Origin: Candidatus Omnitrophota bacterium
Lineage (GTDB): Bacteria > Omnitrophota > Gorgyraeia > Aquiviventales > Aquiviventaceae
NCBI GenBank assembly: GCA_020057015.1
Contig: JAGVGS010000213.1
Coordinates: 1-32,184 of the forward strand
Length of the DNA: 32,184 nt
Reading direction: 5' to 3'
The notes below the pieces were generated by a model. That model was given only the letters and a program-made list of their open reading frames with translations, was not told where the DNA came from and searched no databases. Both the position numbers and the translations under genes were made by a program. Shown here piece after piece: positions 202-31,804 of this stretch; the first letter of the stretch is position 1, and each line of letters starts with the position of its first letter.

Positions 202-1728
<1,527 letters not shown>

Positions 1729-1748
1729 GGCGGGCGTAGAGTAGCACG

Positions 1749-4041
<2,293 letters not shown>

Positions 4042-10855: not shown

Positions 10856-10932
10856 GGGGGCGTAGCTCAATTGGTTAGAGTGGCGGCCTGTCGAGCCGTA
10901 GGTTGCGGGTTCGAGCCCCGTCGCCCCCGCCA
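10856..10932 (+). tRNA. tRNA-Asp (anticodon GTC), CCA encoded
   Basis: GGGGGCG/CGCCCCC acceptor stem, discriminator G, CCA at 10930-10932; anticodon arm GCGGC-CTGTCGA-GCCGT. Confidence 0.95.
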
Positions 10933-10936
10933 TTTA
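10910..10936 (+). repeat. Proximal att-like direct repeat (tRNA-Asp 3' end)
   Basis: TTCGAGCCCCGTCGCCCCCGCCATTTA; matches 24388-24414 at 26/27 positions. Confidence 0.85.
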
Positions 10937-12546: not shown

Positions 12547-15000
12547 ATGATTGTCCCGGCAGAAGCACTGCGGCAGCGATTACGCGACTTCTTCAGCCGA
12601 AGCGAGTGGCTGGCGCGGTTTTTGAACATAGCACCTCCCAAAGGCATTTCAGCCGAGCCGGGCCTCGTGATGATACAAATCGACGGCCTAAGCCTGACAC
12701 AGCTTGAGCGCGCCATAACAAAAGGGCACATGCCCTTTCTGAGCCGGCTGTTGAATCAGGAGCAATATAGCAAGTACCGGCACTATACCGGCATTCCCTC
12801 CAACACGCCTGCGGTGCAGGGAATGCTTTTTTACGGTGTTAAAGCCTGCGTTGCCGCCTTCAGTTTCCGGGATAACCGCAACGGGCAAGTCGGCAATATG
12901 TTTACTCCGGCGACCGCAGCAGCCGTGGAAGCGGTCCTGAAGGATAAAGGCGAAGCTTTATTAGACGGCGGCAGCGCCTATGGAGATATTTTCACCGGAG
13001 GGGCTAAAGAAGCGCGCTTCTGCGCCGCTTCCATAGGCTGGGGCAGTTTGCTTAAAGTAGCCAATCCGGCAGGCGTGCCGTTCACCCTGCTGTTTAACCT
13101 GCACATTCTAGCCGGTGCCTTGCTTCTCGCTGTTGTCGAGTTTTTCCTGGCCCTTATCGATTCGTTCCGCGGGATCATTTTCGGGGAAAAGCTGCGGGAA
13201 GAAATTCAGTTCATCCCGCTGCGGGTGATGGTTTGCGTTGTGCTGCGGGAAATCGTGGAGATGAGCGTCCGCATCGATATCGCCCGCGGAATTCCGGTTA
13301 TCCATGCTAATTTTGCCGGTTATGACGAACAGGCCCACCACCGCGGTCCGACTTCGGCTTTTGCGCATTGGTCGCTTCATGGAATCGACGGGGCGATCCG
13401 GCGCGTCTGGAAGTCTGCGCGGCGCTCGCGCCCTCGCGACTACGATGTGATTATCTATTCAGACCACGGGCAGGAGGAAACAGTTGATTATCCAACCGAA
13501 ACCGGCCGGTCGCTGGAAGAAGCGGTGGCGCAAGTCTTCAGCGAAAAGATCTCAGCCGGTGGCTGGAAAACAACGCCATTTATCCCAAGCAATCCGCACT
13601 GGCGAGCACAGCTGCTGCGCAATCCCGCCAATAAGCCGGTGTCTGCCGCACCGGTAGCTCTTGCACCAGCGGTTGAGGGACTGGAAAAGCAGCCGGATTT
13701 GAATGTTACGATTACCGCCATGGGCCCCTTGGGCCATATTTATCTGCCGCAAGCTTTGACATCGAGTGAGAGCGAAATGATCGCGCGAAAGCTCGTGGAT
13801 GAAGCAAAAATTCCCCTTGTCATGCGGGCGGATGGAACGGGGCGGGTGTTTGCCTGGAACGCGCAGGGAAGATTTGCGCTTCCCGATGAGGCGGATAAAG
13901 TCATTCAGCCGGACCATCCGTATTTTGATGAGGTGAAAAGAGACCTGGTCGACCTGTGCCATCATCCCGATGCAGGCATGTTTGTGATTTCCGGATGGAG
14001 ACAAGGGGCTAAATCGCTTACCTTCCGCAAAGGCGAACAGGGAAGCCATGCCGGCCCGGGAGTTGAGGAAACAAACGCGTTTGCCTTGCTTCCTTTCGGG
14101 GTACTTCCGCGTCATTTAAGAAACAAAAAAGCCATTGATACGCTCGAGCTACGGCAGATCGCGCGGTCCCTGTTGGGCCACCCCGTAGAGCACAAGCCTG
14201 CCGCAGAGGTTGCTTCAGGCGCGGTTGCAACTGTGCTGCGCATCATGACGTATAACGTGCATGGCTGTATGGGAAGGGATGGGAAAGTCTCCCCTGAGCG
14301 CATCGCCCGGATTATTGCCAGGCATGAACCGGATGTCATTGCGCTGCAGGCATTGAATATGCGGGAAGGCCTCAATCAGGCCGAGGTTATCGCCCGCAAG
14401 CTGTCTATGCCGTTTCACTTCCGTTCAGCCGTTGCCGCTGAGCAGGGACGCATCGGTAACGCTATTTTCAGCCGGTTTCCCATGCGACTTGTCCAGGCGC
14501 AGGAGCTGCCGCGATTTTCCAAATTGCCGCTGGTGAAACCGCGGGGTGCCTTGTGGGTTGAAATCGAATTGCCAGGCAAAAAAGTGCAGGTGCTCAATAC
14601 CCACTTAAGCCTCTATTCGGCGGAGGGCCTGGTGCAAGCGCAAGCCCTCTTAGGCAATGGATGGCTCAAGCATCCGGCCTGTGCAGAGCCGGTCATTCTG
14701 TGCGGCGATTTCAATGCATTGCGCCAATCAAAAATCGGCAGCCTGCTTGAGAAGACGCTTAAGAATACTCGCGTAGAGCCTAATAGGCGCGGCTTCTTCG
14801 CCTCGGTGCCAAGCTACCCCGGGGGGCCGGGGGACCATATTTTTGTAAGCCCTGAAATAACAGTGAAGGCGTCATGGGCTCCCAAGACAGACTTGGAAAA
14901 AACCGCATCAGACCACTTGCCGCTTATTACAGAAATAGAAATAGCCGGCCCAAGCCCGGCTGGTGAACCGGCAAGCACTGCGGCTCAACAGATATCCTAA
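12547..15000 (+). CDS. Fusion protein: type I phosphodiesterase/alkaline phosphatase superfamily domain + C-terminal endonuclease/exonuclease/phosphatase (EEP) domain
   Basis: N-terminal MIQIDGLS, SNTPAVQGMLFYG, ANFAGYDEQAHHRGP, IIYSDHGQEE, GSHAGPG metal/nucleophile motifs with a hydrophobic insertion; C-terminal RIMTYNVHG, EPDVIALQ, LNTHLS, ILCGDFNAL, ASDHLPLITEIEI typical of EEP. Confidence 0.8.
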   Translation: MIVPAEALRQRLRDFFSRSEWLARFLNIAPPKGISAEPGLVMIQIDGLSLTQLERAITKGHMPFLSRLLNQEQYSKYRHYTGIPSNTPAVQGMLFYGVKACVAAFSFRDNRNGQVGNMFTPATAAAVEAVLKDKGEALLDGGSAYGDIFTGGAKEARFCAASIGWGSLLKVANPAGVPFTLLFNLHILAGALLLAVVEFFLALIDSFRGIIFGEKLREEIQFIPLRVMVCVVLREIVEMSVRIDIARGIPVIHANFAGYDEQAHHRGPTSAFAHWSLHGIDGAIRRVWKSARRSRPRDYDVIIYSDHGQEETVDYPTETGRSLEEAVAQVFSEKISAGGWKTTPFIPSNPHWRAQLLRNPANKPVSAAPVALAPAVEGLEKQPDLNVTITAMGPLGHIYLPQALTSSESEMIARKLVDEAKIPLVMRADGTGRVFAWNAQGRFALPDEADKVIQPDHPYFDEVKRDLVDLCHHPDAGMFVISGWRQGAKSLTFRKGEQGSHAGPGVEETNAFALLPFGVLPRHLRNKKAIDTLELRQIARSLLGHPVEHKPAAEVASGAVATVLRIMTYNVHGCMGRDGKVSPERIARIIARHEPDVIALQALNMREGLNQAEVIARKLSMPFHFRSAVAAEQGRIGNAIFSRFPMRLVQAQELPRFSKLPLVKPRGALWVEIELPGKKVQVLNTHLSLYSAEGLVQAQALLGNGWLKHPACAEPVILCGDFNALRQSKIGSLLEKTLKNTRVEPNRRGFFASVPSYPGGPGDHIFVSPEITVKASWAPKTDLEKTASDHLPLITEIEIAGPSPAGEPASTAAQQIS

Positions 15001-15040
15001 CAAGCCCCCCCCGCAGCATTCTTCAATCGCCTCATCCGCT

Positions 15041-15109
15041 ATGATGAGCCCTATTCATTCAGCATATGCATACTATGCATTGGCTTTATACAATGCCGAG
15101 TGCGATTAT
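15041..15109. promoter_or_regulatory. Conserved promoter/operator block, copy A
   Basis: Gap-free match to 19016-19084 (about 52/69 by hand); contains GCATA-N7-TATGC and GCATTG-N8-CAATGC dyads; upstream of the 15207-18135 genes. Confidence 0.6.
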
Positions 15110-15206
15110 CCCCTGTGGCCAAATAGACGGCATGGCTTACAGGTGGAAGAGACAAGGGGGGAAGCGTCGGGCAGTAACGAAGAGTAGTCACTAAGGAGGA
15201 TGCGCA

Positions 15207-15557
15207 ATGCATCGAAAGCGAATGGGGTACGTACTGTTTCTGGGCGGCCTCTTGAGCCTTGTTGCCGGTCATTCAACCGTGTATGCCTTGGGTTCGACAG
15301 CTGGCGATAAATTGACGCGGGGACTCGCCAACACCATTCAAGGTATTTTCGAGGTTCCACGGAACATCAGTAATACGACTGAAACGCAAGGCCTTCTGAC
15401 CGGTTTGACTGTGGGATTAGGTAAGGGCCTGGGCTATGGGGTGCTGAGGACGCTGGTCGGGCTCTACGAAGTCGTGACGTTTCCCATCCCGGTGCCCGCG
15501 GGCTATGCGCCTATCATCCAGCCGTATGCGTGGAACACTGGCGGAATGTGGCTGTAA
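15207..15557 (+). CDS. Exported protein resembling the exosortase-system-associated TIGR04073 family
   Basis: Signal peptide, then KLTRGLANTIQGIFEVPRNISNTTETQGLLTGLTVGLGKGLGYGVLRTLVGLYEVVTFPIPVPAGYAPIIQP; TAAGGAGG before ATG. Confidence 0.6.
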   Translation: MHRKRMGYVLFLGGLLSLVAGHSTVYALGSTAGDKLTRGLANTIQGIFEVPRNISNTTETQGLLTGLTVGLGKGLGYGVLRTLVGLYEVVTFPIPVPAGYAPIIQPYAWNTGGMWL

Positions 15558-15621
15558 TGTGAGAAGGTCTTCAGGCAGGAAGTGGTTACGGTCTTTAAGG
15601 AAGGAAGGAGGAGGCTAAGCG

Positions 15622-16029
15622 ATGGTGTTAGAAGTAGCAGCCGTTATCGCTGTCGTCATTTTCGCGGTTTTGGCCGCGGCGACCATTCAGACTCAACTTA
15701 AATTGCAGCGGACCTTGGCGGAAGCCCAGCGCGTGCTGGGCACCGTACAACAGGAAATCCCTGTGCTGGCGGTGAACCTCAACGCCATGGCTTGCGCCGT
15801 TACTGCGTTGTCGATAGAAGCGCGGCGCGGTGTTGATCAGGCCTCTGGTTTTCTAGGGGCGGTCGAAGAGGCCGGTGAAGGGCTGAAACAGATGCAGCGT
15901 CTCGTGTATGGAAAAGGCGACGCATGGTATATGCAGGCGCGAGGAGTTTGGGCAGGCGTGCGCGCCGCGTCATTAGTACTCTTGGGGGCGGTGTCACTAA
16001 CAAAGGGAAGACATTCCAATGGACAATGA
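15622..16029 (+). CDS. DUF948-like single-pass membrane protein
   Basis: N-terminal TM MVLEVAAVIAVVIFAVLAAATI followed by coiled-coil-like region; directly upstream of a YtxH-like gene. Confidence 0.55.
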   Translation: MVLEVAAVIAVVIFAVLAAATIQTQLKLQRTLAEAQRVLGTVQQEIPVLAVNLNAMACAVTALSIEARRGVDQASGFLGAVEEAGEGLKQMQRLVYGKGDAWYMQARGVWAGVRAASLVLLGAVSLTKGRHSNGQ

Positions 16030-16324
16030 ACAGCAAGGCGGGTCGGCGGCGGTAGGTTTGGCGTTTTTGCAAGGAGCGGTAATCGGAGCCATTGGGGCAT
16101 TGTTATTAGCGCCTCGTTCCGGCCGAGAGTTCCGCAAACAAATCAAGGGGTATGCACAGCAGACAGGCGAGAAATTACGCACCGTGGCGGGCAATGGACA
16201 GGATGCGCTTCAGCACGGCATGGAAGAGGGAAGACATCTCGCCGAAAAAGGCCGTCAGATTCTCAGAGAGGCTGCAGAGGCCGGCCAGAGCGCCATCAAA
16301 CAGGAGCGTGGTCGTCCTTCGTGA
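16019..16324 (+). CDS. YtxH domain-containing protein
   Basis: FLQGAVIGAIGALLLAPRSGREFRKQIKGYAQQTGEKLRTVAGNGQDAL is the YtxH pattern (G..GallLAP.sG.e.R). Confidence 0.85.
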   Translation: MDNEQQGGSAAVGLAFLQGAVIGAIGALLLAPRSGREFRKQIKGYAQQTGEKLRTVAGNGQDALQHGMEEGRHLAEKGRQILREAAEAGQSAIKQERGRPS

Positions 16325-18135
16325 GCGATATGGGCGCTGAAGCAAAGGCCGTTGAAAAAATGATCAAGGGGATAGGGGCCATGCCGCACGCGCAGGGTGT
16401 TGCGTTTCGCGTGTGGGCGCCCCATGCGCAACGCGTATCCGTTATCGGGTCATTCAACGACTGGAATGGCAGCAAGCACCCCATGCAAGCTGAGGAGAAC
16501 GGCACCTGGTACGCCAATGTGGCCGAGGCGCATGTCGGCGATGAGTATCGCTACCAATTGGCGACGCCGAAGGGCGAGGTGAAGCGCATCGATCCGTATG
16601 CCCGCGAAGTGACCGGCTCGGTCGGAAACGCCATTATCCACGACTCGAAGTTCGACTGGGAAGGGGACAACTTCCACCTCACGGCGTGGAACGAGCTGGT
16701 CATCTATGAGCTGCATGTCGGCACTTTCAATGATGAGGCGGGCGGTGACCAGTCGGGCAAGTTCGCATCGGTGTCGGCTCGATTGGGGCACTTGAAAACC
16801 CTTGGCGTGAACGCCATCGAGATCATGCCGGTGGCCCAGTTTGCGGGAGAGCGGTCATGGGGGTACAATCCCGCCCATATTTTCTCGATTGAAAGAGCGT
16901 ATGGGGGCTCGTTGGCATTTAAGCGATTTGTCAAACAGGCCCATAAGCAGGGCATCGCGGTGATTCTGGATGTGGTGTACAACCACTTAGGTCCCAGTGA
17001 CCTCGATTTATGGCAGTTCGACGGCTGGTCTGAAAACAATCGCGGCGGCATTTACTTCTACAACGATGACCGAGCGAAGACGCCCTGGGGGGAAACCCGG
17101 CCGGATTACGGGCGCGGCGAGGTGCGGCAATTCATCCGCGACAATATCTTCATGTGGCTTGAGGAGTACCACGTCGACGGCCTGCGCTTCGACTGCACTC
17201 AATTCATCCGGACCATGAATGGATCGAACGACCACGAGCTGCCTGAGGGTTGGAGCCTGCTCCAATGGCTCAACAGCCAGGTTGCCGAGAAGTTTCCTGG
17301 CCGGATTACGATCGCCGAGGATTTGCAGAATGATAAGCGGCTCACCCAGGACGCCGGATCCGGCGGAGCAGCTTTCGGTTCGCAATGGGATGCCAACTTC
17401 GTGCACCCGATCCGCCAGGCGGTAATTGCTCCCGAAGATCAACAGCGGTCTTTAATTGCCATTCGCGATGCGCTGACTTACCGCTACAACGATGATGCCT
17501 TCGACCGGGTCATTTACAGCGAATCGCATGATGAGGTGGCCAACGGCAAAGCGCGCGTCCCGGAAGAAGTGAACTCGCAAGACCCCAAAGGCTGGTATGC
17601 GCAAAAACGCTCAACCTTGGCCGCCGCCATGGTCTTCACGGCCCCCGGCATTCCCATGCTCTTCCAGGGCCAGGAATTTTTAGAAGGCGGATGGTTTCGC
17701 GATACGGTGCCTATCAATTGGGACCAAAACGAAGAGTTCCATGGCATTGTTCGCCTCTACCGCGACCTCATCCGTTTGCGTCTTAACCGCGGCGGCTTTA
17801 CCCGCGGCCTCTGCGGGCAGTTTACGCAGGTCCATCACTTAGACGATGAGCGCAAGGTTCTAGCTTTTCACCGCTGGGAGAAGGGTGGGCCAAAGGACGA
17901 CGTGGTGATCGTTGCCAATTTTTTCCATCAGCCGCAAGACGGCTACGTCATCGGCTTTCCGGCGGCAGGCGCTTGGAAATTACGGTTCAACAGCGATTGG
18001 CAAGGCTACAGCGATGATTTCAAAAATCATCCAAGCAGCGATGTAACCGCCGGAGCAGGCGAGCACGACGGCTTGCCCTTCCATGCAGCGCTTTCGATAG
18101 GCCCCTACAGCGTGCTGATCTTTTCACAACTCTAA
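16321..18135 (+). CDS. GH13 1,4-alpha-glucan branching enzyme / alpha-amylase family protein
   Basis: CBM48-like VAFRVWAPHAQRVSVIGSFNDWNG, LVIYELHVGTFND, VVYNHLG, DGLRFDCTQFIRT, ITIAEDLQ, YSESHDEVAN; GTGA overlap with the upstream ORF. Confidence 0.85.
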   Translation: MSDMGAEAKAVEKMIKGIGAMPHAQGVAFRVWAPHAQRVSVIGSFNDWNGSKHPMQAEENGTWYANVAEAHVGDEYRYQLATPKGEVKRIDPYAREVTGSVGNAIIHDSKFDWEGDNFHLTAWNELVIYELHVGTFNDEAGGDQSGKFASVSARLGHLKTLGVNAIEIMPVAQFAGERSWGYNPAHIFSIERAYGGSLAFKRFVKQAHKQGIAVILDVVYNHLGPSDLDLWQFDGWSENNRGGIYFYNDDRAKTPWGETRPDYGRGEVRQFIRDNIFMWLEEYHVDGLRFDCTQFIRTMNGSNDHELPEGWSLLQWLNSQVAEKFPGRITIAEDLQNDKRLTQDAGSGGAAFGSQWDANFVHPIRQAVIAPEDQQRSLIAIRDALTYRYNDDAFDRVIYSESHDEVANGKARVPEEVNSQDPKGWYAQKRSTLAAAMVFTAPGIPMLFQGQEFLEGGWFRDTVPINWDQNEEFHGIVRLYRDLIRLRLNRGGFTRGLCGQFTQVHHLDDERKVLAFHRWEKGGPKDDVVIVANFFHQPQDGYVIGFPAAGAWKLRFNSDWQGYSDDFKNHPSSDVTAGAGEHDGLPFHAALSIGPYSVLIFSQL

Positions 18136-19017
18136 GGCGCGTCCAGGCGCTTTTAGGGGAGTGGTGAGGAGATTGATGAACTTCTTTGCCGGCAGCGAGA
18201 GCTCTGCTCGCTTTCGAGTGATTATCCCGATGGTGCGTTCAAACGGGCCTTCCGCGAGTTCCAGAGCTTTCAGCTTTCCGTATCGAACTTCATCTAAAAC
18301 GGTGATTTGAGGCACTAGGGCAAGCCCTAAGCCGGCTTCCACCGCGCGCTTCGTAATTTCAATATTGTCGAAGGCGTGCATGACTTTAACCCGGATATTG
18401 GTCCCCCGCAAAATATCATCTACCGGAAACTCCGCCTGAGGGACGATGAACGGCGCATCCTGCAGCTTGGCAAGAGAAACCTTCTTTTTAGCGGCCCACG
18501 GGTGCTTGGGCGGCACGATCAGGACGACCTGCTCTTTCCTAAAGGGTGTAATCGTTAACTGAGGATGTGGTTTAGGGGAGTCGACAATCCCGACCTCTAT
18601 CCGGTCAGCGAGGACGGCATCCTGCACGTCCTTATCTTTGAGGTACGTCAGGAAAAGGTCGACCTTCGGATAACGCTTGAGGAAGTGGCTCGTGTACTGG
18701 GGCAGCTGGTAGAGTCCCGTCGTGTAGATGCTGGCAATCCGCAGGTGGCCGGTTACTTCGCCCGGTGGCGCCTTAAGGGCGCTCTCAAGCTGTTCGTACC
18801 TCTTGAGGAGATCCTGAGTGGCCTCAAAAAACAGGGCTCCGGCCCGGGTGAGTCGAATTTGCCCGCGGCCCCGTTCTACAAGCTGCTGCCCGAAAGCCTT
18901 CTCGATTGCTCTTAAGTGATGACTCACCGCCGACTGTGTCAGGAAGTTGCGGTGTGCCGCCTCGGTGAAGCTTTGGGTGGCCACGAGGTCCCGGAAGATT
19001 CGGAAAGCACGCAACAT
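18124..19017 (-). CDS. LysR-family transcriptional regulator
   Basis: 297 aa; N-terminal HTH (FRIFRDLVATQSFTEAAHRNFLTQSAVSHHLRAIEKAFGQQLVERGRGQIRLTRAG) plus substrate-binding domain. Confidence 0.93.
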   Translation of the reverse strand: MLRAFRIFRDLVATQSFTEAAHRNFLTQSAVSHHLRAIEKAFGQQLVERGRGQIRLTRAGALFFEATQDLLKRYEQLESALKAPPGEVTGHLRIASIYTTGLYQLPQYTSHFLKRYPKVDLFLTYLKDKDVQDAVLADRIEVGIVDSPKPHPQLTITPFRKEQVVLIVPPKHPWAAKKKVSLAKLQDAPFIVPQAEFPVDDILRGTNIRVKVMHAFDNIEITKRAVEAGLGLALVPQITVLDEVRYGKLKALELAEGPFERTIGIITRKRAELSLPAKKFINLLTTPLKAPGRALEL

Positions 19018-19084
19018 GATGAATTATCCTCATCTAGCATATTACGAGTATGCATTGGCCTTATACCATGCCGCGTGCCATTAT
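19016..19084. promoter_or_regulatory. Conserved promoter/operator block, copy B (lysR divergent intergenic region)
   Basis: Gap-free match to 15041-15109; GCATA-N7-TATGC and GCATTG-N8-CCATGC dyads; starts at the lysR start codon. Confidence 0.6.
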
Positions 19085-19111
19085 GCAATGCCAGATTGAA
19101 AGGAGGGTGTT

Positions 19112-19189
19112 GTGAACCGCATGGGCCTGCCGTGGCTGAGCTTAAGCGGGCACGGGAAGCGGCGCAAGCCAGGGCGCTCGTTAAGTTAG
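19112..19189 (+). CDS. Possible 25-aa small ORF / leader peptide
   Basis: GTG start after AAGGAGGG; reads MNRMGLPWLSLSGHGKRRKPGRSLS*; lies between copy B and the YeaQ-like gene. Confidence 0.25.
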   Translation: MNRMGLPWLSLSGHGKRRKPGRSLS

Positions 19190-19210
19190 AAAGCAAACAA
19201 GGAGACGAAT

Positions 19211-19471
19211 ATGGAAAGCAGAGCAGAGTACTGGATTTGGTTCCTCGTAATGGGTGCCATCGTTGGTTGGTTGGCAGGAATCATCATGCGTGGCCGCGGG
19301 TTTGGGCTTTTCGGCGACATCGTAGTCGGCGTTGTGGGAGCCGCGCTGGGTGGGTGGGTAGCCAACACCATGGGGCTGTATGCCACCAGCTCGCTCGGGG
19401 CTTTCCTCGTGGCACTTGGCGGCGCATTGCTTTTGGTGGCTCTCACGCGTTTTGTGAAGCGCTTAGCTTGA
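19211..19471 (+). CDS. GlsB/YeaQ/YmgE family stress-associated membrane protein
   Basis: 86 aa; WFLVMGAIVGWLAGIIMRGRGFGLFGDIVVGVVGAALGGWVANTMG matches the family pattern. Confidence 0.88.
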   Translation: MESRAEYWIWFLVMGAIVGWLAGIIMRGRGFGLFGDIVVGVVGAALGGWVANTMGLYATSSLGAFLVALGGALLLVALTRFVKRLA

Positions 19472-19554
19472 TATTGGCAGAAGTGATTGTTCGTGGGAAA
19501 TGATTCATGCCCTGTGCGCACGCGAGTGCCACGGGGCGCAAAAGGAGAACTTCG

Positions 19555-20229
19555 ATGTTTGGGTATAAATCACTTGTAGTGGGATTACTTGGCGTCGGGT
19601 TGTGTAGTGGGATTGTCCCAGGCGCTGTCTCGGCGGCAGAACTGGTGGTCCCGGTGCGCCAGGCTGCGGGACAAATCGTATGGCTGGATACCCAGCTAGG
19701 ACGCCTGCAACTGAACGCGGATAACTCCCCAGGAATGCAGGCCACACAGTACACGATTACTCAGCATGACACCCGTGTGACTGACCGTTCGGATAAGCAG
19801 TTTCTCGCTATTACGGATTTACGAGCAGGGCAGCATATCACGATTGAATCCCGGGCCAGCGGGGAGGAGCAAATCGCGACCAAGATTACCGTGGAACCTT
19901 CCTCGGCACCCTTATTCCAAGAAGCTGAGGGTACGATTGAGTCAATTGACGCCGGTAATCCGGGCACGTTTACCCTCAAGGAGACTACAGGCACCCAGCC
20001 AGCGGGAACGGTGTCCTTGTTCACGTTTGATCCCAATACCATAGTTGTCATGGAAAGCCCTAGCCTTCAGCCGGTTCGATTGGAAGTAAAGCCCGGTGAT
20101 TTTGTGAGGGTGGCCTACGTGGTGAATGATGGCAAGCGCACTGCGCGTTCAATGATGCGGTATTCAGTCAGGCCGGCGCCATCGACCACCATCACCACTA
20201 CGACAAGCACCACGACCACGACGCAATAA
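19555..20229 (+). CDS. Exported protein of unknown function with Thr-rich C-terminus
   Basis: ATG 19555 after AAAGGAGAA; signal peptide MFGYKSLVVGLLGVGLCSGIVPGAVSAAE; ends PSTTITTTTSTTTTTQ. Confidence 0.7.
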   Translation: MFGYKSLVVGLLGVGLCSGIVPGAVSAAELVVPVRQAAGQIVWLDTQLGRLQLNADNSPGMQATQYTITQHDTRVTDRSDKQFLAITDLRAGQHITIESRASGEEQIATKITVEPSSAPLFQEAEGTIESIDAGNPGTFTLKETTGTQPAGTVSLFTFDPNTIVVMESPSLQPVRLEVKPGDFVRVAYVVNDGKRTARSMMRYSVRPAPSTTITTTTSTTTTTQ

Positions 20230-20584: not shown

Positions 20585-21106
20585 ATGAAGGTTAGCGAGT
20601 GCATGACCACGGACACGAGTGTGTGCGTAGCTGAAAGCAGTTGTGCGGCAGCCGGCGAGATCATGCGCCGGAGCCAGTCCGGATTCATGCCGGTTGTTGA
20701 CAGCCTTAAAAACAAACGGGTCGTGGGCGTGGTGACGGATCGCGACTTGATGCTTCATTTGGTTCGTCAACCGCCCGCACGCCATATCCCCGTGAAGACT
20801 TGCATGACGAAAGCCCCCACGCTGATTGCGGCCGATGCAGATCTCGAGGAAGCGATACGCGTGATGAAAAGGGCGGCGGTGCCCCAGCTGCCTGTCGTCG
20901 ATGACGGGGTCCTTGTCGGGGTGCTCTCGTTGCTGGATATTGCCCTGGCCGTTCGCAGGCAATGGGCCTATGTAGGACCGAATGTCACGGACAATCATGT
21001 GACCGAGATCATTGAAGCGATCGCGGTGGCTCGAGCCGCGGCCCAAAATGGCCACGCATTACTTAGGAAGCCTAAAACGGTAAAAAGAAAGGTGCGTTCT
21101 TTATGA
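20585..21106 (+). CDS. CBS-domain-pair protein
   Basis: VSECMTTDTSVCVAESSCAAAGEIMRRSQSGFMPVVD...VVGVVTDRDL...CMTKAPTLIAADADLEEAIRVMKRAAVPQLPVVDDGVLVGVLSLLDIA. Confidence 0.93.
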   Translation: MKVSECMTTDTSVCVAESSCAAAGEIMRRSQSGFMPVVDSLKNKRVVGVVTDRDLMLHLVRQPPARHIPVKTCMTKAPTLIAADADLEEAIRVMKRAAVPQLPVVDDGVLVGVLSLLDIALAVRRQWAYVGPNVTDNHVTEIIEAIAVARAAAQNGHALLRKPKTVKRKVRSL

Positions 21107-22782: not shown

Positions 22783-22937
22783 GGTATAGCTAGTGTCATG
22801 GCGCTATACCCGTTACAGCCTATTTTTAACTAATCCACGTAATTAATATACCGTTTAGGGTATAGTATTTATATAGCTATATCCTTAAGGGTATATTTAT
22901 CGTGTTTATATCTTGAATTTATACCTGATATGGTATA
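22783..22937. promoter_or_regulatory. Operator/promoter array upstream of hipB
   Basis: TATACC-N6-GGTATA at 22847-22864 and 22920-22937, an imperfect TATATCC..GGGTATA around 22878-22895, and GGTATAG-N14-CTATACC at 22783-22810; AT-rich. Confidence 0.7.
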
Positions 22938-22948
22938 GTATTTATGAC

Positions 22949-23182
22949 ATGGATACGTTTGGGAAGCAGATCAAGGAATTGCGCAAGCGAGCCGGCCTCA
23001 CGCAGCTGGAATTTTCCAGCCGAGCGGGCGTCGGGTTGCGGTTTATCCGTGACCTTGAACAGGGTAAGCCCAGCGTGCGTCTGGATAAGGTAAACCAGGT
23101 GCTGAAATTCCTGGGGCATCACCTGGAGATCGTGTCAGACCATGAGCGAAGAACAGACTCGAAGAGCGACCGTTCAGTATAA
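22949..23182 (+). CDS. hipB: HipB-like XRE-family antitoxin/regulator
   Basis: MDTFGKQIKELRKRAGLTQLEFSSRAGVGLRFIRDLEQGKPSVRLDKVNQVLKFLGHHLEIV; XRE HTH of the HipB subtype; upstream of hipS/hipT-like genes. Confidence 0.85.
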   Translation: MDTFGKQIKELRKRAGLTQLEFSSRAGVGLRFIRDLEQGKPSVRLDKVNQVLKFLGHHLEIVSDHERRTDSKSDRSV

Positions 23183-23471
23183 CGGGCGGGTCGCAGGCTT
23201 CTTGTCGGAGACGGCAACCGGCTACCGGTTCAGCTACGACAAGGACTACCTCCGCACAGGCCCCGCGATCTCCATCTCGCTGCCTCTTCGCGAGGAACCC
23301 TATGAGTCCAAAGATCTCTTCAGTTTCTTTCGGGGATTGCTGCCCGAAGGGTGGTACCTGTCGATTGTCAGTGCCACCGCCAAGGTTGATGCGCAGGATG
23401 CGTTCGGGATCCTCCTGGCCACGACGGCCGATACGATCGGTGCGGTCACCGTGCATAAGGCAGACGCGTGA
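23142..23471 (+). CDS. hipS: HipS-like protein (stand-alone HipA N-terminal subdomain)
   Basis: 109 aa; VQYNGRVAGFLSETATGYRFSYDKDYL...AISISLPLREEPYESKDLFSFFRGLLPEG corresponds to the HipA N-terminal subdomain; overlaps hipB and hipT. Confidence 0.82.
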   Translation: MSEEQTRRATVQYNGRVAGFLSETATGYRFSYDKDYLRTGPAISISLPLREEPYESKDLFSFFRGLLPEGWYLSIVSATAKVDAQDAFGILLATTADTIGAVTVHKADA

Positions 23472-24349
23472 GTGCGGGGGCCTTGATGGTTGACGCGAAA
23501 ACGCTCAAGGGCCTGTTCCATCTCTCGGTGGCACCCACCCTTTCACTCTCGCTGCCGGACATTTCTCTGCAGGCGCAGGCGATGGTCGGGAAGATGTCCA
23601 TTTCCGGGGTCCAGCCGAAACTGTCGCTACGGCTGGATAAGGCCAAGCGAGAGCTGGTCCCGGTTGCTGCCGGCGGCGAATACATCTTGAAGCCGCAGAT
23701 TCAGGCGTTTCCCCATGTCCCTGAAAATGAGAGCTGCTGCATGGATCTCGCCGCGATGCTGGATATCGACGTACCGCCGCATTGCCTCTTGCCGCTGAAA
23801 GACGGCACGCTGGCCTACGTGGTCAAGCGCTTCGATCGGGACGGAGAGCAGAAGATCCACCAGGAGAATTTTTACCAGATCCTTGAGAAGAAGGATAAAT
23901 ACGCGGGTGCTCTAGAGGAAATCGGCAAGAAGCTCAAGGAAATCTCGGCTGTGCCGGGGCTAGACGTGCAGCTGTTCTTTGAGCGCGTCGTCCTCAACTT
24001 CTTGATCGGCAACGGCGACGGGCATTTTCAGAACTACTCGATTTCGTATACCGACCACGGCGTGCGCCTGGCCCCGGCGTATGATCTCGTGTGCACGAAG
24101 CTGGTGATCCCCACCGAGGAAGATTCCGCCTTAACGCTGCATGGGAAACGAAACCACCTCACGCGGAACGACGTGGATGCGCTGGCAGACTACCTGGAGA
24201 TTCCCTCGCGCGTTCGCTATCAGAAATTCGTCGGCACGCTGACCCGGATGGAGCAGCTGGTCAAGGCCAGCCGCCTGCCCACCGCGTTCTGTGAGCGATT
24301 CCTCGAGATCATCCGGTTGCGGCACGGGCGCCTAAAACTGAGCTCCTGA
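23468..24349 (+). CDS. hipT: HipT-like Ser/Thr kinase toxin (HipA core kinase)
   Basis: 293 aa; Gly-rich loop MSISGVQPKLSLRLDK with SIS motif, catalytic GNGDGHFQNYSI, LAPAYDLV; GTGA overlap with hipS. Confidence 0.85.
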   Translation: MSAGALMVDAKTLKGLFHLSVAPTLSLSLPDISLQAQAMVGKMSISGVQPKLSLRLDKAKRELVPVAAGGEYILKPQIQAFPHVPENESCCMDLAAMLDIDVPPHCLLPLKDGTLAYVVKRFDRDGEQKIHQENFYQILEKKDKYAGALEEIGKKLKEISAVPGLDVQLFFERVVLNFLIGNGDGHFQNYSISYTDHGVRLAPAYDLVCTKLVIPTEEDSALTLHGKRNHLTRNDVDALADYLEIPSRVRYQKFVGTLTRMEQLVKASRLPTAFCERFLEIIRLRHGRLKLSS

Positions 24350-24387
24350 CGCTTTACGCAAGTCCTTGCAATTCCTCGTCTTCCGAA

Positions 24388-24414
24388 TTCGAGCTCCGTC
24401 GCCCCCGCCATTTA
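24388..24414 (+). repeat. Distal att-like direct repeat (partial tRNA-Asp 3' end)
   Basis: TTCGAGCTCCGTCGCCCCCGCCATTTA; 26/27 identical to 10910-10936 and includes the CCA. Confidence 0.85.
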
Positions 24415-24636: not shown

Positions 24637-27048
24637 ATGAAGAAGCTTCTGTTCTTGGTAGCGTTGCTCGCCTTTGGTTTCCTCGCTCCTTCCTCTGCCC
24701 ATGCTGCACAGCCTGTGGGTTATTGGAATTTTGAGGAGCAGACGGGCTCGCAGGTCATTGGTCGCCCTTTAAGAAATTCCGGAATGTTAACAGGAGCGAG
24801 CCGAGGTGGTGGCAAGGTAGGCATGGGCGTATGGATGAATGGAAGCGGAGGTGTCACCATTTATCCAAGCGAAGACTTTAATTCCTTGCTCGGAGGATTC
24901 ACATTCTCGGCGTGGATCAACCCTAGCAGTAATGTGTCCGGGTACGTGACCATTTTCTCGAAAAGCCCGAACCCTTTAGCTACAAACCCCGCAGATGTTC
25001 ACAATCAACTGCACATTCGCGTGCATAATGATGGCCACCTGCAATTCGTGCTGAACAATCATGTAGATTTCGGGGGCTTCCAAGGCTTTACTCCGGCGGG
25101 TGTTGTTCCTCACGGCTCCTGGTCTTTCGTTACTTGGACCTATGATGAAACCATCCACCGCATTCATGTCAATGGTGTTGAGGTATTCAGCGCCTCATTC
25201 AATCAGCCCTGGACTGGGAACAGCGAACCGCTGGGCATTGGTCAAGGAGTCGAACCCTTTGTCGGATCTATCGATGAGGTTCGTGTGTATAAGGGGGCGC
25301 AAACGCTGGAAGAAATCGTTGCCGATATGAACAACACCACCGTGCAACCCACGGGTGTCTATTTAGACTGGGGCTTTCCGATGGTTACAGCAGCGAGCCC
25401 GCAAGAGGTAAAAATTGAGTTCCAAGTTAGTAATGGGGGACCCGACAATTTAACAGAGTCCATGTTTGAGGACTTTGGCAATATTGGCGGAGGACCATTT
25501 GGCTCTTTCCCTGGTGAGTATTATACCCAGACAGTTGAACCCTGGTATGTTGGGCTGAATATGGCTCCTGGAGAAAGCAAGCAGTTTCATGTCATTTCTT
25601 TAACTGCGACAGGTCAAGGGGCTCCCCCTGGTGAGTATGGTGGGGAGGGATGGATGAGACTTAAGCTTGAATTCGATCTTTTTGATCGATTTGGATCGCA
25701 ATCTTCAAGGTATCCCAGGCCGTTTAGATTCACAATTCTTCCACCTCCCAATCTCTCCGATATACTTACCTTTCCTAACATTTCCGGTCTTCAATTTCAA
25801 GTCATCACGTCAAACATCGCTGCACCGCTCATGGGCAAAATTGGCTCTGGAAGGGATTTAACAGTAGATAGTAATGGAAATATCTATGTGGGTGGAGTTT
25901 ACCGCGGCGCTCCAGGTTACAGTTCGCCAGGCTCGGCAGCGGTGATGAGGATTCTTCAAGATGGGACGAGCCATGTGGTTGCCTACGTTAACCCGCCTGA
26001 GGGATTTCAGAGTCCTGAACCTCCCGAGGGCATGGCTTTTGATCCTGATGGTAACTTAATTGTACAGTTCACACTAAAGTCTGTACCCGACGGGTACATG
26101 ACAGTGCATCCGTTGGTCAGAATCACGGGTCTTTCATCAGCTGTTGTTGAACCCGTTGCGACTCCGACAATTGACCCATCTGGTGGCGTATTCGATTACC
26201 CTGTTGATGCGACAATCGCAACAGCTACGGCGGGTGCAGAAATACGCACGACACTCGATGGAAATATCCCTACAGCGCTGTCAGCGTTGTATACGGGGCC
26301 TATTCAGATATCTCAAAGCGGGGTCTTGAAAGCGAAAGCCTTCAAGTTTGGCAGGTCAGATAGTGCTGTTGCCAGCGCCAGCTTCACGATCCAGGCAGCT
26401 AGCCCGATCATTAGTCCAGCCGGAGGGAGCTTCGTCAGCTCAGTTCAGGTGAGCCTATCATCGAGCACGAGCGGTGCGACGATACGTTACACAACCGATG
26501 GAAGTACCCCAAACTCTGGCTCAACGGTTTACGGAAGCCCGTTTACGCTAACAAGCAGCAAGCCGGTGAAAGCTTATGCCAGCAAGTCTGGGATGACGGA
26601 CAGCGGTGTGGCCAGCGCGGACTTTACTATTACCCAGCCAGCTGGAACAATCACGATCCCTGCGTCAGGAACCTCAACCCGCAGCACCGGCTGGCTCACC
26701 ACCAACAGCACCGAGCTGTGGTATTGGAATGCGAACCAGTGGCTGGAATACTCAGTAGATTTTGGGGCGGGTGGCAGCCGGACAATCAGTGCCACGGCGA
26801 TCAACCATAACAGCGCTGGGCTGGGCCTGCCTGCGGGCTATACCTTCAATCTCACTGTGCTGATCGATGGCGTCAACAAGGGCACCCTCAAGGTCCCGGG
26901 CTCCACCACGCTCTATAAGACCGGCAGCCTCGTCGTGACCGCCCCAGCCGGCGTCCACACCGTGCGATTTACCTGGACCAATGATGTGTGGACCGCGGGG
27001 CTGTATGACTCAAACATCCAGGTCAAAGAGGTGTCCATCGCGCCGTGA
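24637..27048 (+). CDS. Secreted multidomain protein: LamG/concanavalin-like domain, CHB_HEX_C-like repeats, CBM-like C-terminal module
   Basis: ATG 24637 after GAAGGAGA; signal peptide MKKLLFLVALLAFGFLAPSSAHAA; GYWNFEE...AWINPSSNVSGYVTIFSK...IDEVRVYKGAQTLEEI (LamG); PAGGSFVSSVQVSLSSSTSGATIRYTTDGSTP (CHB_HEX_C). Confidence 0.8.
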   Translation: MKKLLFLVALLAFGFLAPSSAHAAQPVGYWNFEEQTGSQVIGRPLRNSGMLTGASRGGGKVGMGVWMNGSGGVTIYPSEDFNSLLGGFTFSAWINPSSNVSGYVTIFSKSPNPLATNPADVHNQLHIRVHNDGHLQFVLNNHVDFGGFQGFTPAGVVPHGSWSFVTWTYDETIHRIHVNGVEVFSASFNQPWTGNSEPLGIGQGVEPFVGSIDEVRVYKGAQTLEEIVADMNNTTVQPTGVYLDWGFPMVTAASPQEVKIEFQVSNGGPDNLTESMFEDFGNIGGGPFGSFPGEYYTQTVEPWYVGLNMAPGESKQFHVISLTATGQGAPPGEYGGEGWMRLKLEFDLFDRFGSQSSRYPRPFRFTILPPPNLSDILTFPNISGLQFQVITSNIAAPLMGKIGSGRDLTVDSNGNIYVGGVYRGAPGYSSPGSAAVMRILQDGTSHVVAYVNPPEGFQSPEPPEGMAFDPDGNLIVQFTLKSVPDGYMTVHPLVRITGLSSAVVEPVATPTIDPSGGVFDYPVDATIATATAGAEIRTTLDGNIPTALSALYTGPIQISQSGVLKAKAFKFGRSDSAVASASFTIQAASPIISPAGGSFVSSVQVSLSSSTSGATIRYTTDGSTPNSGSTVYGSPFTLTSSKPVKAYASKSGMTDSGVASADFTITQPAGTITIPASGTSTRSTGWLTTNSTELWYWNANQWLEYSVDFGAGGSRTISATAINHNSAGLGLPAGYTFNLTVLIDGVNKGTLKVPGSTTLYKTGSLVVTAPAGVHTVRFTWTNDVWTAGLYDSNIQVKEVSIAP

Positions 27049-27719: not shown

Positions 27720-30700
27720 ACATGCGGCGTGGTGTCTGGGCTTCGGTCCTGCTTGGGTTTATCATCTGGGCGCCTCCTTGCTATTCTGCAGATACAACCT
27801 CCCCACACACTTCGCAGCACAATCCATCGGTCAGCGCGGTCGGTGTCGACCTGGATACGAGTATTAGCCTGCATATTCTGGATCTGGACAGCGGCGTGAA
27901 TCAGTCCACCATAAGAATCAGCGTGGAGGGCGCACTGGTGTATGACGGTTCAACGCCACTTTCCTACCCGAATGTGACCATAATGGGCTCCCCCTCTGAT
28001 TTCAGCCTCACGTACTATCCGCCTGCAAGCTACGCATTTCTTCAGGTCATCAATGTGGCCGTGGATGCAGCGGATTTATCGGGTAATGCGATGCCGCAAA
28101 ATGTCTATTCCTTCACCATTCGGGGCAGGCTCCTTCCGGATGAGGCGGTGGAGCGAGGAAAGAACGAGCTTCTTCAACGTAAGGATGTCTTCAAAGCAAA
28201 CCAATTGTTCAACGAAGCCCTATCGCAGAACCCGAATCACCCCAAAGCCCTATTCTGGCATGCCATCACGCGCTTCTCTGAGAATAGTGAAGCTGTAACG
28301 CTGGTTCGAGACTCGCAAGTTATCGATGAACATAACCAAGCACTCTTCGATGCGCAAGGCAGATGGGGCGCTGATCTGAATCAGCCGTTTCCGAACCTGA
28401 CAGAGTATCAACAGGGAGGAATCGGTTTGCTTCCAGACATCGACGCGGCACTCGCAGAGCTTGCTCCGCTGGACCAGACATTTAGCGATACGCTGTCGGT
28501 TGTGCAGATATTCGATTTGGATTATGGGGAGGCAAAGCTTTATGAAGCCGGTCTGCTCGCAAGCAAGGCGGCAGTTCACATCGGTGCGGCGTACGATGCG
28601 GATTACGCGGATCTGGCCCCGCGGTTTATCCAGCCAACGTCTGGCAAGGGACGGGAGATTATTCGGCAGATTATGCTTGAGTATCCGCAGGGGTTGACTC
28701 TCTTACCAGGCGCGGCAGCACATCTTGCACAGGCCAAGGAAGCCATTCAGCAGTCGCTGGAGGCGTATCTCGAAGCTTCAGCCTTCATACGCCACCGCTC
28801 CGACAATGACGGGTTGAACCATCTTGTGCGGTTCTACGACCTTGACGACACGCAGCAAGAGAGGTTCATAGCGCTCTTCGCGGAGGCCATGCTGCGCGGG
28901 AAGCTGGCGGATCTTCAGGACCACCTAGCTAATCCGGGTGGGTTTCCCATGTTGAGGGTCAGCTACGATGCCTACATGGACGGCCTGAATGAGTTCAATA
29001 AGGTACCGCTGAGGCCTCGCAAGTTTGATATCAATGAGTTCTTGTCATATCCCAAGAATGTCAGGGCCTATCTCAATGAGTTCTTGAGCAATGACTTTGT
29101 CGTCAATTCATTTTCCGACCCCACCTTGGGACAGGTGCTGCCCGAAGCGACGCCGCCCGATTACAATTGTGTCGCCGGCCGGGGAGCGAACTTCAAGAAG
29201 CGTTTCCCCGCTGTGGTTACTTGGTCCGGAGGTCAGGCTTCGGCGCAACTGGCTTGGGATCCGGTTGACCCACGATTTGTGGGCGCCTTTCTGCGCGCTG
29301 AGATCTACCGTTCCGCTTCGCGGCCGGTTGACTCCAGCTCCCAGCTGATGACGACCCTCACGAATCCTACTGTGACGGCATTCCTGGATGTGGATCTGGA
29401 TGAGGCGGTTGATAGCTACTACTATCGTATTTACACCTACTATAATTTTGGCGGCGGCCGCACCGCGACAGCTTATAGCGCGGTGGCTGAGGCGGTTCTG
29501 CGAAGCTCTCCCGATACGCAGTATCCGGAAATAGTTGTGACGGTGCCCAGCGAGGGCGATTCGATCACGGCGGACCGGGTCACCGTAACCGGCAGCATCG
29601 CGAATGAAAGAGGCATTGCGTACGCTGTCATCAAAGTCAATGACGGCTCATTCGAGGGGCTGGCTTTGGATGAAGAGGCGGGTGGGTTCTCCCATGAAGT
29701 GCCTTTGCGTCCGGGACTGAATCAGATAGTACTTCAGGCATCCAACTACTCGAATCTTGTTCAGGAACATGCGCTGAACGTATGGAGGTTGGTCGACATA
29801 ACGCCGCCAACTACCACCGCCACCCCGCCAGGCGGCAACTACATAAGCCCGGTGAATGTTGTCTTGGGCGCGAACGAATCCGCGACGATCTACTACACAA
29901 TCAATGGGAGCGCGCCGACGACCGCCTCCTCGGTATATGCGAGTGCGATACCTATCAATGGTAATACCACACTCAAGTTCTTCGCGGTAGACAACGCTGG
30001 AAACCCGGAGTCTACAAAGACAGAAACCTATATTGTGAGCCAGGGTGCGCAGACAATCATCATTCCAGGAGCCAGCACCTCCAATCGCAGCAGCGGGTGG
30101 AGTGTCGGGGGCACCGAAGCCTATGCGTGGAACGCCCAGAACTGGCTGGAGTACTCGGTAGATTTTGGGCTGGGCGGGACTTGGACTTTCAGGGTGACGG
30201 CGAAGAACCAGAACAATCCAAGCGCACCAGGCCTTCCGGGTGGGTACGCCTTTAATCTGGCGGTACAGATCGATGGCGCCAGCAAGGGCAATCTGCAGGT
30301 CCCTGGGTCCACCACTACCTATCAGACGGGTAGCTTGGCGGTGAGTGTTCCGGCAGGGGTCCACACCGTTCGATTCACCTGGACCAACGATGCGTGGAGT
30401 TCTGGGGTCTACGACGCGAACATCCGTGTGAAGGAAGTATCGTTTACCTCAGAAGGGGTGCCTCCTGTGGATCCGGTCGCGACGCCCACGATCACGCCGG
30501 CTGGAGGCAGTTTCGTCAGCTCAGTTCAGGTGAGCTTATCATCCACCACCAGTGGAGCGACGATCCGCTACACAACCGATGGAAGTGCCCCAAGTTCTAG
30601 CTCAACGGTTTACGGAAGCCCGTTTACGCTAACAAGCAGTAAGACGGTGAAAACTTATGCCAGCAAGTCTGGGATGACGGACAGCGGGGTGGCCAGCGCG

Positions 30701-31804
30701 GACTTTACTATCACCCAGCCAGTTGGGACGATCACCATCCCCGCCGCCAACACCGCCACCCGCAGCACCGGCTGGCTCACCACCAACAGCACCGAGCTGT
30801 GGTATTGGGCGGCTCACCAATGGCTGGAATATGCGGTCGACTTCGGCACCGGCGGTAGCCGCACCATCAAGGCAACTGCTATCAACCACAACAGCGCCGG
30901 CCTCGGGCTACCGGCAGGGTACACCTTCAACCTGGACGTCAAAATCGACGGCGTGGTCAAAGGCACCCTCAAGGTCCTGGGCTCCACCACGCTCTATAAG
31001 ACCGGCAGCCTCGTTGTGACCGCCCCAGCCGGCGTCCATACCGTGCGCTTTACCTGGACCAATGATGTGTGGACGGCTGGGCTGTATGACTCGAATATTC
31101 AGGTGAAGGAAGTATCGTTTACCTCAGAAGGGGTGCCTCCTGTGGATCCGGTCGCCACACCCACGATCACGCCGGCTGGAGGCAGTTTCGTCAGCTCAGT
31201 GCAGGTCAGCCTATCATCGACCACGAGCGGTGCGACGATCCGCTACACAACCGATGGAAATACCCCGAACTCTGGCTCAACGGTTTACGGAAGCCCGTTT
31301 ACGCTAACAAGCAGCAAAACGGTCAAGGCTTATGCCAGCAAGTCTGGGATGACGGACAGCGCTGTAGCCAGTGCGGACTTTACTATCACCCCACCAGCTG
31401 GAACGATCACGATCCCTGCGTCAGGAACCTCAACCCGCAGCAGCGGCTGGCTCACTACCAACGGCACCGAACTGTGGTATTGGGCGGCTAACCAATGGCT
31501 GGAATACGCGGTGGACTTCGGCACCGGCGGCAGCCGCACCCTGAGTGCTGCCGCCATCAACCACAACAGCGCTGGGCTGGGCTTGCCTGCGGGCTATACC
31601 TTCAATCTCACCGTGCTGATCGATGGCGTCAACAAGGGCACCCTCAAGGTGCCCGGCTCCACGACCCTCTACAAAACAGGCAGCCTCGTCGTGACCGCCC
31701 CAGCCGGCGTCCATACCGTGCGCTTCACCTGGACCAATGATGTGTGGACCGCGGGGCTGTATGACTCGAATATTCAGGTCAAAGAGGTGGCGGTGGGGCC
31801 GTAA
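27716..31804 (+). CDS. Very large secreted protein: Ig-like N-terminus, TPR-like segment, CHB_HEX_C-like/CBM-like repeats
   Basis: 1362 aa; signal peptide MRRGVWASVLLGFIIWAPPCYSAD; helical TPR-like AVERGKNELLQRKDVFKANQLFNEALSQNPNHPKALFWHAI; three C-terminal module pairs. Confidence 0.8.
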   Translation: MNMRRGVWASVLLGFIIWAPPCYSADTTSPHTSQHNPSVSAVGVDLDTSISLHILDLDSGVNQSTIRISVEGALVYDGSTPLSYPNVTIMGSPSDFSLTYYPPASYAFLQVINVAVDAADLSGNAMPQNVYSFTIRGRLLPDEAVERGKNELLQRKDVFKANQLFNEALSQNPNHPKALFWHAITRFSENSEAVTLVRDSQVIDEHNQALFDAQGRWGADLNQPFPNLTEYQQGGIGLLPDIDAALAELAPLDQTFSDTLSVVQIFDLDYGEAKLYEAGLLASKAAVHIGAAYDADYADLAPRFIQPTSGKGREIIRQIMLEYPQGLTLLPGAAAHLAQAKEAIQQSLEAYLEASAFIRHRSDNDGLNHLVRFYDLDDTQQERFIALFAEAMLRGKLADLQDHLANPGGFPMLRVSYDAYMDGLNEFNKVPLRPRKFDINEFLSYPKNVRAYLNEFLSNDFVVNSFSDPTLGQVLPEATPPDYNCVAGRGANFKKRFPAVVTWSGGQASAQLAWDPVDPRFVGAFLRAEIYRSASRPVDSSSQLMTTLTNPTVTAFLDVDLDEAVDSYYYRIYTYYNFGGGRTATAYSAVAEAVLRSSPDTQYPEIVVTVPSEGDSITADRVTVTGSIANERGIAYAVIKVNDGSFEGLALDEEAGGFSHEVPLRPGLNQIVLQASNYSNLVQEHALNVWRLVDITPPTTTATPPGGNYISPVNVVLGANESATIYYTINGSAPTTASSVYASAIPINGNTTLKFFAVDNAGNPESTKTETYIVSQGAQTIIIPGASTSNRSSGWSVGGTEAYAWNAQNWLEYSVDFGLGGTWTFRVTAKNQNNPSAPGLPGGYAFNLAVQIDGASKGNLQVPGSTTTYQTGSLAVSVPAGVHTVRFTWTNDAWSSGVYDANIRVKEVSFTSEGVPPVDPVATPTITPAGGSFVSSVQVSLSSTTSGATIRYTTDGSAPSSSSTVYGSPFTLTSSKTVKTYASKSGMTDSGVASADFTITQPVGTITIPAANTATRSTGWLTTNSTELWYWAAHQWLEYAVDFGTGGSRTIKATAINHNSAGLGLPAGYTFNLDVKIDGVVKGTLKVLGSTTLYKTGSLVVTAPAGVHTVRFTWTNDVWTAGLYDSNIQVKEVSFTSEGVPPVDPVATPTITPAGGSFVSSVQVSLSSTTSGATIRYTTDGNTPNSGSTVYGSPFTLTSSKTVKAYASKSGMTDSAVASADFTITPPAGTITIPASGTSTRSSGWLTTNGTELWYWAANQWLEYAVDFGTGGSRTLSAAAINHNSAGLGLPAGYTFNLTVLIDGVNKGTLKVPGSTTLYKTGSLVVTAPAGVHTVRFTWTNDVWTAGLYDSNIQVKEVAVGP
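30437..31804 (+). repeat. Two tandem ~675-bp repeats encoding CHB_HEX_C-like + CBM-like modules
   Basis: GTATCGTTTACCTCAGAAGGGGTGCCTCCTGTGGATCCGGTCGC begins at 30437 and again at 31112; both units end TGGACCAATGATGTGTGG...GTATGACTCGAATATTCAGGT. A third near-identical copy lies at about 26400-27048. Confidence 0.88.

Follow-up and report, generated by a model that had tools for sequence, protein, structure and literature searches.

Two similar 69-bp blocks are present in the window, the whole stretch of 32,184 nucleotides of Omnitrophota DNA analyzed here (Table 1). Comparison with related genomes makes it likely that each copy combines a LysR-type operator with a sigma-70-type promoter and that the same LysR acts at both gene clusters next to these blocks, repressing its own gene at copy B and driving both clusters. 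As the same operator-promoter is found beside lysR and before the neighboring cluster, a single switch probably controls both. The block, its retention at lysR orthologues, the fixed spacing and the uniqueness of both sites in the draft genome are seen in the sequence, and from these we infer binding, activation, autorepression, ligand and direction of control. The mechanism as such is ordinary, and the modest novelty lies in the compact trans copy and in the deep conservation of the operator. The blocks provide a concrete candidate for the operator of a LysR-type regulator from an uncultured phylum with little-studied regulation, and they would be a clean example of a regulon that gains a second operon through a compact operator-promoter copy.

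Table 1. Positions of the operator-promoter copies, their predicted elements and the surrounding genes in the window.
Feature	Position	Strand	Remarks
Copy A operator-promoter block	15041..15109	+	before TIGR04073/DUF948/YtxH/GlgB-like cluster; 75% ungapped identity to copy B; profile E 2.3e-10
Copy A distal T-N11-A box	15044..15058	+	ATGAGCCCTATTCAT; proposed recognition site; homologous position to ATKAG-N5-CTMAT, 31 bp before second box
Copy A proximal T-N11-A box	15075..15089	+	ATGCATTGGCTTTAT; proposed activation site
Copy A outward promoter (predicted)	15080..15109	+	-35 TTGGCT, 18-nt spacer, TGC + -10 GATTAT; towards 15207
TIGR04073 protein, exosortase-system-associated (cluster A)	15207..15557	+	3.6e-24, over cut-off
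DUF948-like protein (cluster A)	15622..16029	+	2.5e-07, below gathering score
YtxH-like protein (cluster A)	16019..16324	+	5.8e-13
GH13 alpha-amylase/branching-enzyme-like protein with CBM48 (cluster A)	16321..18135	+	3' end overlaps lysR 3' end
LysR-type regulator, 297 aa	18124..19017	-	Pfam HTH_1 5.4e-17, LysR_substrate 1.8e-46; nearest solved chain 5y2v
Copy B operator-promoter block	19016..19084	+	between divergent lysR and GlsB/DUF5666/CBS cluster; profile E 4.8e-11
Copy B distal T-N11-A box	19019..19033	+	ATGAATTATCCTCAT; proposed recognition site; abuts lysR start codon
Copy B proximal T-N11-A box	19050..19064	+	ATGCATTGGCCTTAT; proposed activation site
Copy B outward promoter (predicted)	19055..19084	+	-35 TTGGCC, 18-nt spacer, TGC + -10 CATTAT; towards 19112/19211
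lysR promoter (predicted)	19060..19088	-	-35 TTGCAT, 17 nt, -10 TATAAG (inside proximal box)
25-aa ORF (cluster B)	19112-19189	+	ahead of Transgly_assoc gene
Small membrane protein Transgly_assoc, GlsB/YeaQ-type (cluster B)	19211..19471	+	1.4e-10
DUF5666-like protein (cluster B)	19507..20229	+	1.8e-04, below gathering score
Tandem-CBS protein (cluster B)	20585..21106	+	67% identical to CBS protein of L022 lysR-divergent cluster

Two copies of one block

The initial annotation had aligned both copies without gaps and had placed copy B in the divergent promoter of lysR and copy A ahead of the genes at 15207-18135, and all of this is correct. The copies agree at 52 of 69 positions, whereas shuffling the two intergenic regions 2000 times gave a best ungapped 69-mer match of 30.9 on average and 40 at most, so the match lies far beyond chance (z about 14). 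Identity stops at the edges of the block, as the 25 nucleotides on either side are unlike each other (4/25 identical on the left, 7/25 on the right). The left end of copy B overlaps the start codon of lysR. A search of 14900-19400 for structured RNAs gave no Rfam match.

Two similar copies in one region could also belong to a repeat that is dispersed over the genome and has nothing to do with regulation, the outcome against which the initial annotation had set its own proposal. However, the sequence TATGCATTGGNNTTATACNATGCCG with up to three mismatches has two matches in the window (0 expected), and neither a third match to the longer core TATGCATTGGNNTTATACNATGCCGNGTGC nor a further match at E <= 10 to a profile of related promoters was found in the 1.73-Mb Omnitrophota draft genome, which is 73.6% complete. 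Furthermore, the edges of the block coincide with functional elements and the homologous blocks of other species sit at lysR. With only the two copies matching, such a repeat can be rejected for the ~74% of the genome covered, and the explanation as a whole has a negligible probability.

Two T-N11-A boxes and overlapping divergent promoters

A comparison of the regions upstream of orthologous lysR genes, which had been suggested as a check, revealed that nearly all relatives with an orthologous lysR keep the block just upstream of it. Conserved are ATKAG-N5-CTMAT and ATKCATTNGNYTTAT, two T-N11-A boxes 31 bp apart, together with two overlapping divergent promoters. The distance between the starts of both boxes is 31 bp in 13 of the 14 aligned Omnitrophota sites and 30 bp in the remaining one (L020). 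The distal box of 15 bp adjoins the lysR start in most relatives and has the arms ATGAR-N5-YTCAT in the near relatives of the window and ATTAG or ATAAG elsewhere. Its T and A are invariant in 14/14 sites and 82.9% of the cells are paired in the dyad register (25.7-48.6% in slid controls); covariation of the arms was not above shuffles. The proximal box is the most conserved element across Omnitrophota and only an imperfect dyad. It overlaps the outward -35, and the -10 of lysR is located inside the same box on the opposite strand.

Taken as a whole, a T-N11-A box with an imperfect dyad lies near a divergent regulator gene and a second box follows at fixed spacing at or near the -35 of the target, and these are the features by which LysR-type operators are recognized. 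In line with this, a core search with three mismatches in 58 other relatives hit four places, each beside a lysR orthologue that had been found independently by protein search.

The outward hexamers occur at fixed offsets and are similar in most relatives, with an 18-nt spacer and usually TGC followed by GATTAT or GATACT. For the predicted lysR promoter, the relatives have a -10 of TATAAG/A and, in about half of them, a TTGAAT-like -35 at 17 nt. By consensus the outward promoter is weak (8/12, with 2-4 of 6 matches in the -35); a generic consensus promoter scan did not report the block, and the outward promoter of copy A scored below its threshold. As the most conserved part of the block includes promoter hexamers on both strands, it might also be a promoter used by one particular sigma factor, or a site of another regulator common to both clusters, instead of a LysR operator. 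This is very improbable, because strong sites are confined to genomes that have this lysR, where they lie directly next to it, and a pair of T-N11-A boxes is a typical feature of LysR-type sites (PMC8407307).

Within the LysR operator that we favor, the conserved elements are not the dyads that had been named at first. GCATA-N7-TATGC is present in both copies, and with at most one mismatch 0.72 occurrences are expected in the window by chance. It had been read as a bound dyad and is kept only in the nearest relatives (L021, L022 and partly L023 and L026), and the second dyad GCATTG-N8-CAATGC is restricted to this genome. In the alignment, these dyads amount to a partly conserved middle segment and a symmetry that is not preserved in the relatives. 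The spacer behind ATGATGA, which was said to diverge, retains TCAT in both copies (15055-15058 and 19030-19033); this is the second arm of the distal box that is conserved in the relatives.

Copy A as a second target of the adjacent regulator

The scan of the whole genome for the motif, likewise suggested at the outset, was done on the draft genome with a profile of 11 relatives' lysR promoters from which copies A and B were left out, and it detected only these two sites at E <= 10. Among 59 relatives, 27 genomes of the family and 384 of the phylum, every other match with E < 1e-8 at the level of family, class and phylum abuts a lysR orthologue. The scores of the relatives are not independent because their own sites trained the profile; the fair part of the test consists of copies A and B along with the lack of further sites. 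As all other strong sites are located at lysR orthologues, copy A stands alone as a trans site among the genomes searched, which contained no other member of the genus. The second site of genome G045 is weak (0.02), and G004, the lysR-bearing genome with the most distant match (41% identity), is without a strong profile site. The idea of one LysR regulon for both clusters is supported insofar as the relatives' profile finds A and B alone, but it does not hold for the dyads on which it was originally based.

Differences between both copies follow a pattern. Copy A has TATAAA at the place homologous to the lysR -10, but GGGGAT (15108-15113) where copy B has the lysR-ward -35 TTGCAT, so that the outward -35 and the extended -10 are retained and the lysR-ward -35 is lost. 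This is the expectation for a copy A that acts on the genes to its right alone and has no lysR to serve. The lost -35 would also suit a duplicated lysR intergenic region that is decaying and plays no part in regulation, as would the unrelated flanks, the lack of a lysR reading away from copy A and the fact that no second trans site was seen. We consider such a duplicate improbable, since differences are more frequent outside the predicted elements (13/36 positions) than inside (4/33; Fisher P=0.027), and copy A has preserved both boxes with their 31-bp spacing as well as the extended -10 and the 18-nt spacer of the promoter. Moreover, with 41.0 bits copy A scores like real lysR promoters of other species (39.0-52.6 bits). 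From the blocks of the relatives and the profile made of them, it is very probable that the adjacent LysR has its second target in copy A.

The arrangement with two boxes and a divergent lysR agrees with the published LysR-type model, in which the protein is anchored at the first box and the second one is located at the -35 (PMC8407307, PMC11739112), and the steps proposed here follow from this model. A LysR tetramer would anchor on the distal T-N11-A box and reach the proximal box 31 bp, or about three helical turns, further on, where the contact would overlap the outward -35. At copy B, lysR would be repressed because its -10 is inside the proximal box, and the divergent GlsB/DUF5666/CBS cluster would be activated when the ligand is present. 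As copy A has the same operator and outward promoter, without lysR or a lysR-ward -35, the same LysR would control the TIGR04073/DUF948/YtxH/GlgB-like cluster in trans. The boxes overlap both promoters and NdhR, a relative from cyanobacteria, is a repressor (PMC13249358), which would also agree with a variant in which LysR binds both blocks but represses both clusters; the operator is then the same and only the direction differs. This variant is rather unlikely, because a proximal box at a weak -35 in a two-box arrangement is the usual activator layout.

Cluster B, which also holds a small lipoprotein-like ORF, looks like the older target, as judged from the similarity of its CBS protein to the one in the lysR-divergent cluster of L022. 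For the GH13/GlgB-like protein no orthologue was found at 1e-60 in the 58 other relatives, so cluster A is not traceable across species, and at other loci none of its genes was found beside lysR. Many relatives have TIGR04073 genes, yet the strong profile matches outside this genome are all at lysR.

Both operator copies, lysR, both clusters and a hipBA-like module lie between two repeats of the 3' end of tRNA-Asp (10856-10932), which recurs 13.5 kb away (10903-10936 and 24381-24414, 27-bp core with one mismatch). This stretch is a possible island integrated at tRNA-Asp; among the ORFs examined, none was recognized as an integrase. It is possible, and we suggest it with reservation, that the ancestral lysR operator-promoter was copied as a 66-69-bp cassette within this tRNA-Asp-bounded island and that the copy captured a newly arrived glycan/envelope cluster, which would give a LysR with an operator architecture common to Omnitrophota and Acidobacteria a lineage-specific trans target.

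Further repeats were observed in the window. Three near-copies of a 26-nt element (TATACCGTTTAGGGTATAGTATTTAT) at 22847-22945 are located just ahead of a small HTH-like ORF (within 22913-23182), which is followed by split HipA genes (23142-24349); the elements are probably HipB operators. In addition, 26416-27035 and 30128-31791 contain several long direct repeats with a 675-bp period and up to 92% identity within and between two large genes, the first of which has chitobiase C-terminal-like and CBM6 domains.

Relation to known LysR-type systems

The regulator has an N-terminal winged HTH and a C-terminal substrate-binding domain, both with Pfam scores over the cut-off. The nearest solved relative of the LysR alignment is 5y2v (163.7 bits vs 108.9 for the next different protein), whose record is titled 'Rubisco operon transcriptional regulator' and which we take to be cyanobacterial NdhR/CcmR. 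None of the curated LysR subfamily models shown passes its cut-off: NF045990 for CbbR, which covers a particular CbbR subgroup, gave 112.6 bits (cut-off 450) and the selenium-metabolism LysR model NF040786 gave 165.3 bits (equivalog cut-off 250). A search of the 73.6% complete draft genome for RuBisCO_large gave no match. The regulator would work like a CbbR-group LysR, and we do not claim membership in CbbR/RbcR.

More distant relatives of the LysR in Acidobacteria (34-42% identity) have an ATAAG-N5-CT box whose distance to a TTCATTTNAYCTTA box is almost the same; the shuffle comparison of these sites is only indicative, as the scoring consensus was written after seeing the sequences. In most of the about 20 loci examined among L036-L071 (Acidobacteria/Blastocatellia), the distant lysR orthologues are divergent to or near sdhC, mostly followed by sdhA and sdhB (sdhCAB, succinate dehydrogenase). 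No paper on a divergent lysR-sdhCAB arrangement was found in the literature. The similar layout at these loci would make the question of the ligand accessible in relatives that are possibly easier to handle.

A transfer of lysR between Omnitrophota nzgw326 and Patescibacteria nzgw387 has been reported, with the gene treated alone (PMC12455944). These MAGs contain our loci L025 and L022, which have the orthologous lysR and the same operator. In L022 (Peribacteria MAG nzgw387), however, lysR shares its 4.2-kb contig with the operator and the divergent CBS gene (1298-3407), which means that the transfer involved a larger unit or else that the contig is misbinned.

The LysR promoters described for BsrA and YhaJ consist of recognition and activation sites with T-N11-A boxes and 50-60 bp of bound DNA (PMC8407307, PMC11739112). 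The blocks described here share the T-N11-A boxes, the divergent regulator gene and the overlapping promoters with them, but here the candidate operator also occurs once without a regulator gene. The NdhR/CcmR motif ATAG-N8-CTAT (PMC13249358) is not the motif found here, and no NDH or carbon-uptake genes were recognized beside this lysR. A further parallel is the RbcR operator of Synechocystis, ATTA(G/A)-N5-(C/T)TAAT, in the form in which it is quoted from Bolay et al. (2022) in PMC13249358. Compared with this quoted motif, the window has ATGAR/YTCAT arms, a second box and overlapping divergent promoters belong to the conserved unit, and the predicted targets are envelope, CBS and GH13 genes, whereas a RuBisCO large subunit was not found in the draft genome. 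In the Omnitrophota loci L034 and L014, however, the distal box reads ATTAG-N5-CTAAT, which is the same 15-bp motif as the quoted RbcR operator and is likewise associated with a LysR-type regulator.
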